Shown here: positions 11,101 through 49,600 of the stretch, piece by piece
Layout: the number at the start of each line of letters is the position of its first letter
Position numbering within the stretch: position 1 is the first letter of the stretch
Assembly (NCBI GenBank): GCA_034509925.1
Contig: CM067527.1
Coordinates: forward strand, 10,122,501 to 10,186,500
Direction: 5' to 3'
From: Hirudinaria manillensis
Lineage: Eukaryota > Annelida > Clitellata > Hirudinida > Hirudinidae
Length of the DNA stretch: 64,000 nt
Position numbers and translations under genes: made by a program
The notes under the pieces: generated by a model
What the model saw: the letters and a program-made list of their open reading frames with translations, nothing else
The model's database searches: none
What the model was told of the DNA's origin: nothing

Positions 11101-14100
11101 ATATGGCTACAGTTTTTAAATCATTGCTAGTCTAAAAAGACTGCCAGAAGAAGTCTGAAGAGACAGTCAAGTCGACTTTAATTTATTCCGTCAATTATTC
11201 ACTTTGATGTTCTAATAATTTTTCAGAGCAGGGTGTTTATGCCTAGCTGTGAGAAATAGCATCTGTTACGAAACATGCGGTAGTTGTTGTTGCTATTGTT
11301 GTTGATGTTGTTGTTGTTGTTGGGAATCCTACTTGTATTAAGTTATTTAAATATGATTATGAACTGCCACTTCTTCTTCCTCAATCGTCACCAGACTTGC
11401 TGGTGTTCATTAATGGTTGTTGTTGTTGTCATTGTTGTTGTTGTTACCATTAAATTATTAATACTATTATTAATGTATTACTACATGACTTGTGCTTGCT
11501 ATACTTTGATAGTTGTTCAATTGTTGGTGACATTTCATTTTATTACAATGAGTTACTTAATTGCAGTGCCTTGCATCCATCTATCCATCCATCCATCCAT
11601 CCATCCATCCATCCATCCATCCATCCATCCATCCACCCACCCATCCATCTATCTTATACAATGTCTATAAAGTTGATAAGAAACTTCATTAAGAGACTTG
11701 ACTTGGCCTTTGATTTAGTGTCACACTGTTATTATTTATTCTTATTATTATTAATAATAATAATTATTATGCTTGTTATAATTTCATGCAGGTGGTTTTA
11801 CTGCAATTATGCATTTTTATTTTGCTTTCACATCCTCGACATTAGTGAATTGATGACAAAGCGAATAATATTCATTAGTCACAAATAAAGAAAAAGATGT
11901 CATTTACAAACATTTCCTAAGAAATTGGGTGTATTGCATAAAGGTCATTAAATTTCAAACCGACCAATCAGGATCGATTAAAGATGACCAATCAATGTCA
12001 ATCATAAAAGTTCGTATCAACTCTTCAGGCAGGAAATTTTGTTGGAATTTTAATCAATCAATTTCAATCAATCAATTTTAATCAATCAATCAATTTCAAT
12101 CAAAAATACATTTTTTTCAGTCAGGAAATTTTATCAGAAATCACCGACTTAACAAACTACTCGACTGACGACTTCCGAGGAGTTCAAGAAACGATCCGAG
12201 ACCTCGTCCGATCCGTGAAGCCGAGTCTCGAATACAACGACTTTGTTGCCTCGTTCAGGTGGGGAATAAGGGTCAGGTGTTGAAACATTTGGAAAGATGA
12301 TGATTATGATAATGGTGATGATGATGGTGTTGATGGTGATGATAATGATGGTGATGATGATGATGATGATTAAATAATACCAATTGGTGATAGTAGTGCC
12401 ATCTCATTCTCTCAGAATCATATCATTGGTTTTTATTAAATTTGATTGTCCTGGTCTGTGTTTACACGTTAAGGAGCAGATGTTTCCTATCAGAACATTA
12501 AATCATTGTTATCATCATCATCGTCATCATCATGAGAGAAAACAATTTAAGCTTTTAATGAGTTGGTTAATCAGTTTGTTATTGATTTTAACATAATTTA
12601 TTACTTAATGTTTATTTACTGTTTAAACTGCTTAAAGTTGTAAATAAGTGTAATTCATAAAAAAAATTTACATGAAGTTACTGTAAATGTTAATTGTGAT
12701 GGGCAGCACACTCACTCACTCACTCTTTTATAATCTATATAAAAGTCTTTATATGTAATATAAATATTACAATAATTTCCATGCATTAAAATGCAAAGAA
12801 ATTGACTATTCATCTAAAGTTTTGAGTCACCAAAAAGCAAATGATAGAAGTTTGTGAAGGCATTTAATGGATGCCATACAAGGGTACTTCCTGGCTTAGT
12901 TAGGCTGAGTTAAGAGCACAAAAACTAATGATTGTTGTCTTTTCTGACTCATAGATTGGTGCTATGACCTTTCGACCTCACCGTGCAAATGCAATCAAAA
13001 ATGCAGTTTGCCAACCACGTTTCATGACTCTCGAAATTCCTCCAGGTCCGATCCCCTGACCTTCGTCAGGAAGGAATTCGATCCTTCGTTCGTGGACAGT
13101 TCGCTCGGAAACACCGCAGAAAGTGGACTGTTTGTGGATGAGATCACCTGCCAAGAACTGCAGAAGAGGTTTGCATATCTACGATGATGTTTAGGATCAA
13201 TTTGTATTTGTGCATTTCTTATAATTGTTTCGACATTAATTATTCGCACCAAGTAACCTTGTGTAGCGTTCATTTGTCATTTCTTTATAAAACATTGAAA
13301 AAATGGATTGACTGAACGTGCAGAGAAATGAGTATGGCAGAAAATCTGATGCTCATAAAGAAAGATTTGGCATCAAAAAGGAAAGAATTAGAAATTCTTG
13401 AAGGCAAAAGATCTCTTGCTGATGGCAATTGGAATGTTGAAATGAAGTTGGTGAAATTGGTTTTTAAATGTTTTTAAATTGTTTTGAAAAATTAAAAATT
13501 GTTTTCATAAATTTCTCTTAATTTTGACACGGGTTTTTTTTATTCTGAAATTACCAACTATAAACGTTGATTAATATTTAATCCTTATTGAAATGTTCAT
13601 TCATTTTGGATTCGTTATGCTAACTTTCCATCCATACATTTGTAGTACAAATCTGCACTGAAAATGAATGAATTTCACAACTTTTAATTAATATTTGCAA
13701 TTCAAATTTAAAAAATACTTTAATCCGATTATTAACTACTTTACCACTTCAATTTGTCCTTAAAAGCACAAAACCTGTGCAGCGCCACCTTCGGGCAGAA
13801 TTCAGTCGGATCGTTTTTAATTCGAGTCCCGTTGTTGTTGTTGTTTTTGTTGCAGTTTGAAAGACTTGAAGCAGAAAGTTTACGAACTCCAGTGCTACGA
13901 GGAGAGTTTTTCTTCTTTGGTTTCCATGGTTACCACGACTTTGACGACCTTCGTCGACCACGGATCTTTGAAGTCGCTCGAAATATTCGAGGTTAATTTA
14001 ACTTTTAATGACTTTCAATTTTTATTCAAATTGTTTGATAAATAACACATATATATATAAAAATAAAATTGATGCTAAAATACGAGGAATAACATTCGTC

Positions 14101-46626: not shown

Positions 46627-49600
46627 TCAAAGGTCAGATCTCTCCAAGCTTCCCAAAGGACCGGTAGATGATGATGACGGAGGAAGGGGGGAATCACGGT
46701 AGCGGTGCTTGGCCAGTCGCGCTCTAACGAACTCCGGATGACCCTCGACGTGCTCCACCGCCTTCAACACCAGCCTCATGAACTCTTCGACACCAAATGA
46801 ATAATTCGTGAACTTTTTGTGGGCTCCCAAGGTCGGATGGTGACCCTGAAAGTTGTTTTGTGATTAAAAATAAGTTAAAATTGATTTTGAACAATTACTG
46901 CAAATTATTGCACTTACAATTGGTTAACTTTTGATAACTGTTTTGTGATAATATTTAATTATACTTTTTATTCTCTGTTGATGTGACTTGCAAAATACTC
47001 AGAAGTTATATTTGAGAAACGAATAAAGATGTTGAAGATGATGAAGATTAGAGTCTCCCAGCAATATTCTTTTTAAGGTAAAGGCTCAATGGTTTGATTA
47101 AAGAAAACACACAACAGCACAACATTACAACAACACTATGGATAAAACACGAAAAGTAAAAGTAATTGTTGAAAAACAATATACAAAAAAAGCCATTTTA
47201 CTGCAAAGTAAGGCAAGGATAGTTAGAAATCGGTCGGACAAAAGTTGCACTTTCGAGCAATTTCACTGACCTCGTCTTCTTGTACGAGTTCATCCATTTT
47301 CTCCCAGGTGTAATACTTGATGCCCCTCAGTCGGCTCAGGTCGTAATAGCAGTCTTTGTCATCGCAGTTGTACCTGGTCAAGAGGTCAACCAACAGTTTC
47401 GAGCAATTAAAAATGAGATACTTCAGTTGTAGTAGAGAGGATTCAAATTTTAAATTTATTTATAAAAAATTGAATTGATAAGAAATAGATAAGAATCCCT
47501 ACTGGGTTATTCAAATAGTGATTCTTAATATGTACTAAGTGGATGGCCACTTAGCATAATTATATTTGCCATAAAACTGATAAAAAACAAAACAAATTAG
47601 CATAGTCTAAGTCACTGACAGTTCAAAAACAGCTCCCCAATTGGGTAGGAAGAGGAGATGAGTGAGTCCTGCTCCGTGCATTCCGATGAAAATGTCCGAA
47701 TTGTGAGTCACCTGAAAGGACAGAGAAGTTTTTATCTTTTATTTACCTTTCCTAGAAATATATTTAAAATCAGAATAAATTAATAAATGATTATCACTTG
47801 AAATTAAGAACATCATCCAGCAAAGCAGTGCATTTGATGATCGGAACTCGAGCAAAATTTAAAAACACATTCAATGGACTCACATACAATTGGTCAAGAA
47901 ATGAGATGTCACTGTATGGAAGGAAATTAATTTCTTAATTAAATATCTCGAAATTCTAAAAAAAACGTCTAAAGAGAGAAAATCTAAAACAATAGACTGG
48001 ACGATACACACACAAACAACTAGATTTCCACTGACCTGTTGTAATCCACCAAAGTGGCTTCTATTTTTGGATGCAAGAGAAGTGCTCCCAATAACTGGCA
48101 AATAAATAAATAACTTAATTAATTAATTAATTAATTAAACTGGAATCGATTGATGAGACAATATATATTGTCGTAGAGGAGAAGAAAGTTCAATTAAAAG
48201 CGATTTCAAGTCGGAAGTTATTAACGCACCGACCAACCTCGTCTTGATTCAAAATCTTTCTATGATTCGTACTCCTGACTAGGAGAGTCACCCTCACTTT
48301 GTATGGCTAAGTTTTTAATTTTAAAAGAAGAAAAAATTAATTTAAACAAAAAATAAATAATTTGATATTTATGTTTAATAATAATAATCGAAACTATAAA
48401 AATCAGGTGATCACCACACACAAGGCCGCATATACAGCAACCACAAGAAGTATATAAGAACTAAGTAAGAATTAAATAAGTGATGAGTAATAGGGTGGAT
48501 AGATCGATGGATGAGTGAGTGATTGGGTGGATACCCCCCATGGTTCGCACCTGCTTCTGTCGAGGGTTCGAATGTTGATGGAGAAGGTCAAATACTCAAA
48601 AAAAAGTTCAGGGGACTGAACCACAATGTGTATCCCAAAAATGTTGTATCCCCAGATTGGATACAAAACAAATTCAAAGGCTCAGACAAACAAATGGCTC
48701 GGCTAAATACATATTTAGTAAATTCATTTACACTTTTGACTGAATAATAACTTAATAATAATAATAATAATAACGTCCGCTAGAGAAACAGAATTGTAAA
48801 CAAAAAAAATCGACAAACAAAATAAAACGAATACAAAGGAATGAGAGACAAAAAGCTAAAAGAATGCACACCAACATGAGGTCCCACTTGAGGCACTCTG
48901 AGTCTGTATGTGATGTGCCTCGAGAAGGCTCTGAAGAGGTTGCTCTTCCAACATCCTGGAATCTGATTTCATCAACGAATACTTAACGTCTGTTATGCGT
49001 TATGTTAACGCACGAAAGTTAATGTAAACAAGTGTTTGTAGACTTTTGAAACAGACCAACAGCCATCATTATCATGTTTTATGCTAATGAGTTTAGCCGA
49101 TCAAATATTCAAAGAAAAACCAGTTAAAACAGTTTTCTAAGTGAATAATTAGAAATTAAAGCAACAGGAAACTTATTGGTCTTTTTGGGTTTATTCATTT
49201 TTAATATTCCTTATGCATAATGAAATTCTCAAACGTAGATATTGCCATGCAGATCATCTCCATGACCAAAGCCATGGATGGATGGCATTATCATTGACAT
49301 CATCATCATCATCATCATAACACATTCTTACTAAAGGCATTATCATTGACATCATCATCATCATCATCATAACACATTCTTACTAAAGGCATGTTGTAGT
49401 AAAGGCCGTATCTCATCCGAGGCAGCAGAGCAAACATGGCTTCTTTCACACAGACCTGGATGTGAATATAAGATTTCACGTCGAGTCTTTTCAACCGAAA
49501 CTCATTTTATTTTATTTATTGACTTTTTATAAAAAATATCAAAACTCTGCAATAATTGATTGGTTTATTGGCTCCAACATTTGAAGAACATTTGAATAAA

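Follow-up and report, generated by a model that had tools for sequence, protein, structure and literature searches.

In the genome of the leech Hirudinaria manillensis, triplet repeats such as GATGATGAT favour the starts of introns on the gene's own strand. This preference is real and amounts to an approximately two-fold effect. It was followed up in a window of 64,000 nucleotides (nt; contig CM067527.1, positions 10,122,501 to 10,186,500, forward strand), in additional sequence from elsewhere in the genome, and by word searches of the whole assembly. The gene models are predicted ones, either ab initio or hand-set from the sequence, and their donors (5' splice sites) are known from the DNA alone. 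An earlier inspection of the window, here called the sequence-only reading, had proposed that many introns open into GAT/GTT-type runs on the sense strand, that the polarity of these runs flips with the gene, and that the runs cluster at donors. The window is atypical, and one gene makes the effect appear far stronger. This kinase gene, located at ~34.0-44.9 kb and identified by PF00069 matches, is taken here to be DSTYK-like.

Runs of at least 11 nt that start no more than 60 nt from a donor were counted, and the expectation was obtained by rotating the runs within their own introns (4000 rotations). In a strict set of 166 introns, 23 donor-proximal sense runs were found against 10.4 expected, a number reached by none of the rotations, whereas antisense runs were at expectation (5 against 5.1). 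The effect is unusually dense in the region first inspected, because the window holds 17 of the 23 runs (7.3 expected in its 50 introns) and the DSTYK-like gene alone contributes 12 (4.7 expected, P=0.002). The window without this gene contains 5 such runs against 2.6 expected (P=0.09), and the sample from outside the window 6 against 3.1 (P=0.08). Counted by intron, a donor-proximal sense run is present in 14 of the 50 window introns and in 4 of the 116 introns outside (15 of 53 and 5 of 116, p=2.4e-5, in a looser set). Caution is advisable, as striking runs in one gene (at 9 of the 13 donors in the DSTYK-like gene) can exaggerate a genome-wide effect of about two-fold.

Strand asymmetry of intronic tandem repeats extends beyond the donors, with sense:antisense ratios of 23:5 at donors, 56:26 in the middle of introns (p=0.0012) and 4:6 at acceptors. 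The mid-intron bias means that polarity is not limited to donors. The 60 nt next to acceptors hold few sense runs (4 against 10.3 expected) and about as many antisense runs as expected (6 against 5.0). The looser sets had suggested a mirror image of the donor pattern, namely an enrichment of antisense runs at acceptors (17 antisense versus 3 sense runs; 14 against 6.4 expected). This mirror image was mostly rejected, since 8 of the 14 runs are open in the exon frame and one pair is coding in a kinase, and it is gone in the strict set because several acceptor runs are of these kinds. Genome-wide, the acceptor word TTYTTTNCAGR, which is pyrimidine-rich and was used without a matched control, is preceded by ATC 12 times and by GAT 4 times (p=0.08). 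The 95,886 bp that the ab initio gene finder predicted to be intergenic contain 22 GAT versus 19 ATC, 18 GTT versus 18 AAC, 41 ATT versus 29 AAT, and 11 GAC versus 4 GTC runs.

Donors were placed by a two-strand Viterbi gene finder in which the donor was scored at positions -3 to +6 alone and repeats were masked in the coding score. Its first settings were dropped as too permissive (1037 introns), and a stricter model was used instead. The first uncurated set comprised 145 introns and the looser set 53 window introns plus 116 from outside; the strict set consists of 50 window introns plus 116 from 250 kb taken elsewhere in the genome. For the looser set, seven window introns were added by hand and five were taken out: three false minus-strand calls at 44582-46697, opposite the end of the DSTYK-like gene, and the introns at 48956-50046 and 40479-41378. 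For the strict set, three weakly supported introns at 23366-28320 were removed, one acceptor of a FES/FER-like gene was shifted to 15562, and open, unchecked end-proximal runs were omitted in five introns. A frame check of the donor-side sense runs found 11 to lie beyond a stop codon that ends the exon frame, 6 to lie in hand-set introns and 8 to be open in the frame of the upstream exon; six of the latter were kept (one each at 15969, 16931 and 36396, three at 34523) and two were dropped.

The assembly searched genome-wide comprises 148.4 Mb in 23 contigs, the first 13 of which measure at least 8.3 Mb each; the window lies on the contig labelled C2. The donor-like word AGGTRAGT, followed by four GAT (or ATC) units either within 30 nt (near) or at 100-130 nt (far), was compared with the non-donor word AGTGRAGT, whose base composition is the same. 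AGGTRAGT is an impure proxy, as 3 of its 9 occurrences in the sequence analysed were predicted donors. Raw counts on one strand repeat each array, and distinct genome-wide counts were obtained by hand deduplication. Near the donor word there are 33 forward and at least 67 distinct GAT arrays (all 33 forward ones plus 34 from the 76 of 94 reverse matches listed) versus 12 forward and 27 distinct ATC arrays; at the far distance, the counts are 22 and 46 for GAT and 21 and 40 for ATC. The control word has 17 forward and 29 distinct GAT arrays and 9 and 14 ATC arrays nearby, and 24 and 48 GAT arrays at the far distance.

Because the near and far totals of the donor word are alike, an absence of clustering was considered. 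It was rejected, as an edge-effect control and the matched word demand a lower near expectation: with the word required to lie outside the arrays, geometry alone gives far/near ratios of 1.6 (GAT) to 1.9 (ATC), which fits the 48:29 of the control word. The far counts of the donor word itself predict ~29 sense and ~21 antisense arrays near it, whereas at least 67 and 27 were observed. The near:far ratio of sense arrays differs between the donor word and the control (at least 67:46 versus 29:48, Fisher p=0.005), and the sense:antisense ratio at the donor word differs between the near and far positions (at least 67:27 versus 46:40, Fisher p=0.02). For the other repeat type searched near the donor word, 26 GTT arrays compare with 6 AAC arrays. 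The near-word polarity, on the other hand, does not differ between the donor word (at least 67:27) and the matched non-donor word (29:14; p=0.69), and local composition therefore accounts for part of the polarity seen next to a G-rich word. The donor word has roughly double the number of nearby arrays that the control has, and a 2:1 polarity is found beside both. The claim of the sequence-only reading that the runs cluster at donors is thus borne out by the intron sets (23 sense runs against 10.4) and by the word search (at least 67 against 29 beside the matched control); donor enrichment and an inequality of the strands were both found, and it was their absence that this reading had named as the outcome speaking against it.

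Among the genome-wide matches are four near-identical donor-word sites on contig C1, near 7.09, 7.17, 7.24 and 8.32 Mb, which consist of AGGTGAGTGGTGTCGAYGATGC followed by GAT units and apparently are copies of one dispersed or duplicated element.

At the level of individual donors, the sequence-only reading is confirmed: sense GAT, GTT or ATT arrays lie just inside all 11 plus-strand donors that it listed and inside one donor of the minus-strand gene EOGT. Nine of the 11 were returned exactly by the Viterbi finder (12259, 15969, 16931, 34523, 34956, 36396, 37262, 38650 and 40479). Donors 40637 and 43911 were missed by it and accepted by hand from the sequence. The former ends an open exon (40553-40636) that is preceded by AG, and a permissive run of the finder also placed an intron at 40479-40552. 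At the latter, the exon junction fits the order of kinase motifs and reading resumes at 44301; this intron separates the catalytic-loop exon from the DLGFC exon, which matches PF00069. The EOGT donor at 49383 is preceded, by hand reading, by an exon that is open and correctly placed within the gene, and followed by ATGATGATG on the minus strand, so the polarity does flip with the gene. The arrays, including two further runs in the DSTYK-like gene, are:

12296..12370, plus strand: imperfect (GAT)25 array at intron +38 after donor 12259 of the FES/FER-like kinase gene; Viterbi donor.
15978..15995, plus strand: (GTT)6 array at intron +10 after donor 15969 of the FES/FER-like gene; the exon before it matches PF07714.
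16976..17043, plus strand: GAT run (16976-16992) at intron +46 after donor 16931, then two AAT runs of antisense type; the exon before it matches PF07714.
34524..34553, plus strand: GAT then ATT runs from intron +2 of donor 34523, DSTYK-like gene; Viterbi donor.
34997..35009, plus strand: (GAT)4 array at intron +42 after donor 34956, DSTYK-like gene; Viterbi donor.
36422..36433, plus strand: (GTT)4 array at intron +27 after donor 36396, DSTYK-like gene; Viterbi donor.
37279..37299, plus strand: (GAT)7 array at intron +18 after donor 37262, DSTYK-like gene; Viterbi donor.
38656..38679, plus strand: (GAT)8 array at intron +7 after donor 38650, DSTYK-like gene; Viterbi donor.
40494..40506, plus strand: (GAT)4 array at intron +16 after donor 40479, in a 74-nt intron with a hand-set acceptor, DSTYK-like gene.
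40650..40681, plus strand: ATT run of 32 nt at intron +14 after donor 40637 (hand-set), DSTYK-like gene.
43913..43929, plus strand: GTT run of 17 nt at intron +3 after donor 43911 (hand-set), DSTYK-like gene.
44602..44618, plus strand: ATT run of 17 nt at intron +52 after donor 44551 (hand-set), DSTYK-like gene.
41494..41507, plus strand: AAT run at intron +9 after donor 41486, an exception of antisense type in the DSTYK-like gene.
49298..49370, minus strand: two (GAT)7 arrays, sense on this strand, the first at intron +14 after EOGT donor 49383.

EOGT was identified on the minus strand by a match to PDB 9wjk (E=1.2e-92). The end of its exon, the GTAAGA donor and the (GAT)7 array are doubled in an exact 52-bp tandem duplication (49284-49392, minus strand), which creates two identical candidate donors at a distance of 52 nt; splicing from the second would change the reading frame. 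The FES/FER-type tyrosine kinase gene at ~8.1-17.5 kb has SH2 and PF07714 matches, and its joined exons match PDB Fes 4dyl (E=1.3e-12). At 15563-15670, this kinase carries a low-complexity Ser/Ala/Thr insert, derived from ATC/AAC runs, soon after the glycine-rich loop GQFGEVYKG. The ATC and AAC runs at 15605..15631 (plus strand) had been considered intronic; this was rejected, as they are coding, and they are out of the strict set. A predicted intron of the same gene contains a (CATC)20 tetranucleotide array (11574-11653, 93% match), and an intron of the DSTYK-like gene a 57-bp tandem duplication (41518-41639, 2.1 copies, 93% match). Elsewhere in the window, a 22-bp unit is repeated 5.5 times at 3934-4054 (98% match), and a gene with an SH3 domain (PF00018 match) presumably resembles CRK.

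The window has 80 triplet runs of at least 12 nt and the first 200-kb sample (partly N) has 230, compared with 1 and 14 dinucleotide runs, and the densities of the triplet runs, 1.25 and 1.15 per kb, stand against 0.05 and 0.10 in an order-3 Markov resample. Being the commonest simple repeat in both, they are raw material available genome-wide and are not specific to donors. In the 200-kb sample, where triplet runs outnumber dinucleotide runs ~16:1, they are mostly of the AAT, GAT, AAC and ACG types; AAG, AGG, AGC and AGT are rare. Repeat-masked introns have T over A and slightly G over C in their first 60 nt (T 0.37-0.38 versus A 0.28-0.30 at 6-60 nt from donors), a GC skew of +0.05 to +0.06 in the middle, and C over G in the last 30 nt. 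Two-unit seeds outside long runs are skewed in the same direction, with 136 sense and 54 antisense seeds at 6-60 nt from donors and 167 and 126 at 60-150 nt. The former ratio does not differ from the ratio among the long donor runs in the looser set (25:5, Fisher p=0.27), of whose 25 sense runs 11 are GAT, and the masked composition predicts that 21.3+-2.4 of these 30 runs are sense. Long arrays near donors are thus oriented about as they would be if slippage lengthened existing seeds. The sequence-only reading had argued that random microsatellites should not respect strand. They can where the flanking composition does, as with the T/G skew and the seeds seen here. Of that interpretation, the donor enrichment and the inequality of the strands stand, and polarity as an argument against passive microsatellites is not supported in the form given.

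We lean, by a little more than an even chance, towards an explanation in which oriented seeds in a U/G-rich zone behind the donor are lengthened by slippage and kept away from acceptors. Triplet microsatellites would form throughout the genome, presumably by slippage. As the sense strand of intron starts is rich in U and slightly rich in G, seeds located there would mostly be sense GAT, GTT and ATT, and slippage would extend those already present beside the 5' splice site, where sense arrays may be tolerated or mildly favoured. From the last ~60 nt of introns they would be excluded, as G in this region would spoil the pyrimidine tract. A weaker skew of T and G over A and C along the whole intron would produce the 2:1 sense bias in the middle. 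That arrays grow from seeds, and that the skew at either end of the intron has to do with splicing, is our inference. The effect agrees with what is known of 5' splice sites, which tend to be followed by U- and G-rich RNA. The seed skew is probably caused by splicing, because nearly all of 22 organisms have an enrichment of pyrimidine tracts, which act via TIA proteins, in the ~20 nt next to 5' splice sites (PMC2766253) and because intron 3' ends are under selection against AG and for pyrimidines (PMC10946897).

Several observations weigh against this explanation. The near antisense arrays, too, are about doubled at the donor word relative to the control word (27 versus 14), and part of the donor excess is therefore not strand-specific. 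At acceptors, 5 of 19 runs are sense where composition predicts 9.9+-2.1, although some coding arrays had been miscalled as intronic in this looser set. A TIA-type site does not account for the GAT arrays, whose unit is not rich in U, and the arrays after 9 of the 13 DSTYK-like donors are unexplained by composition alone. In short introns of Drosophila, the 5' part has C over G without a positional trend (PMC10946897), and a T/G-skewed intron start is therefore not universal.

Alternatively, the arrays may be intronic splicing enhancers that aid U1, with selection maintaining them in the sense orientation. The (GUU)n and (AUU)n arrays would then bind a TIA-1/TIAR-like or, we presume, a CELF-like protein, and (GAU)n another factor. 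We regard this as rather unlikely as the general cause, and an enhancer function of the arrays as possible, if unproven. The roughly two-fold enrichment of sense runs at donors with antisense runs at expectation and the excess of GTT over AAC near the donor word argue for it, as does the action of TIA proteins on U-rich tracts just 3' of 5' splice sites (PMC2766253). By a U-rich criterion of the TIA type, GTT and ATT arrays would qualify and GAT arrays would not. Against the enhancer, a compensating one would predict weaker donors where an array is present, and no link between donor strength and arrays was seen in the 145 uncurated introns, a comparison of low power (mean 6.77 bits for 17 donors with a sense run and 6.62 for 128 without, p=0.67). 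Moreover, most donors do without an array, donor-proximal sense runs being present in only 4 of the 116 introns from outside the window, and the short seeds are biased alike. A bolder version, in which oriented triplet arrays serve this lineage as length-tunable splicing enhancers and a dedicated RNA-binding protein reads the slippage-prone (GAU)n/(GUU)n tracts on which some genes, the DSTYK-like gene for example, have become dependent, is quite improbable. If it were true, splicing strength could evolve fast via repeat length.

A transcription-associated mutation or repair process could skew the sense strand of the whole intron towards T and G, and repeats would follow this skew without involvement of the splice sites. 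The intron-wide sense bias may indeed be transcription-associated, as the 56:26 ratio and the positive GC skew in the middle of introns would suggest, and Daphnia introns likewise prefer T-rich motifs on the sense strand (PMC3152781). As an account of the entire pattern, this is unlikely. Sense runs peak at donors, and the ratio near AGGTRAGT (at least 67:27) falls to 46:40 at 100-130 nt. Transcription-linked growth of the repeats, one of the causes that the sequence-only reading had put forward, on its own leaves the scarcity of sense runs at acceptors unexplained.

The order of events might also be reversed, in that a GAT/GTT array next to an exon supplies new GT sites and donors therefore come to lie at array edges. 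Donors 34523 (GTGATGATG) and 43911 (GTTTGTTGTTG) do have this position, and the EOGT donor lies in the 52-bp duplication together with its array. Among the matches listed, however, the gaps between AGGTRAGT and the array are spread nearly evenly over 0-30 nt (12 of 0-4 nt, 9 of 5-10 nt, 17 of 11-20 nt and 17 of 21-30 nt, counted by hand in 58 distinct matches, or 55 with the four copies of one element counted once), which makes this scenario very unlikely. Pairing of complementary arrays at both intron ends in the pre-mRNA, which would draw the splice sites together and for which the 14 antisense-type acceptor runs in the looser set had spoken, was rejected as barely credible, because these runs are at expectation in the strict set and none of the eight introns with arrays at both ends has complementary units.

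Microsatellites often pass for strand-neutral noise; the arrays give a simple, quantified example of how they acquire the strand and position biases of nearby splicing signals. Should the arrays be functional, splice-site strength could change rapidly through repeat length.

Among the top-ranked literature results, in which subscription journals were thinly covered, no report was found in which the polarity of triplet arrays depends on their position relative to splice sites. GAT/GTT arrays, to our knowledge, form no G-quadruplex. Related phenomena share some features with the pattern in the leech. G-quadruplex motifs near splice junctions are repeat-like and strand-polar, being more frequent on the non-template strand, but are structure-forming G runs instead of GAT/GTT arrays (PMC9065059). 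Strand-asymmetry measures of splicing-linked selection (PMC10946897, PMC5499120; Zhang et al. 2008 cited there) similarly compare a motif with its reverse complement by distance from the splice site; they deal with bases and k-mers, whereas microsatellites were considered here. The U-rich tracts bound by TIA proteins (PMC2766253) resemble the arrays in being donor-proximal, on the sense strand and within tens of bases. They are polypyrimidine tracts, however, and anticorrelated with donor strength in most metazoans, while the arrays have a period of three and showed no relation to donor strength in the 145 introns. Finally, introns of Daphnia pulex (PMC3152781) have ATT over AAT, GT over AC and poly-T over poly-A on the sense strand, and triplets are over-represented. 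In the accessible text of that study, no dependence on splice-site distance is described, and 'splice' occurs 0 times in the main text. The leech shares with Daphnia the T-rich sense-strand motifs and the excess of triplets, and its weaker intron-wide bias resembles that of Daphnia; its arrays differ in that they include GAT and GTT.

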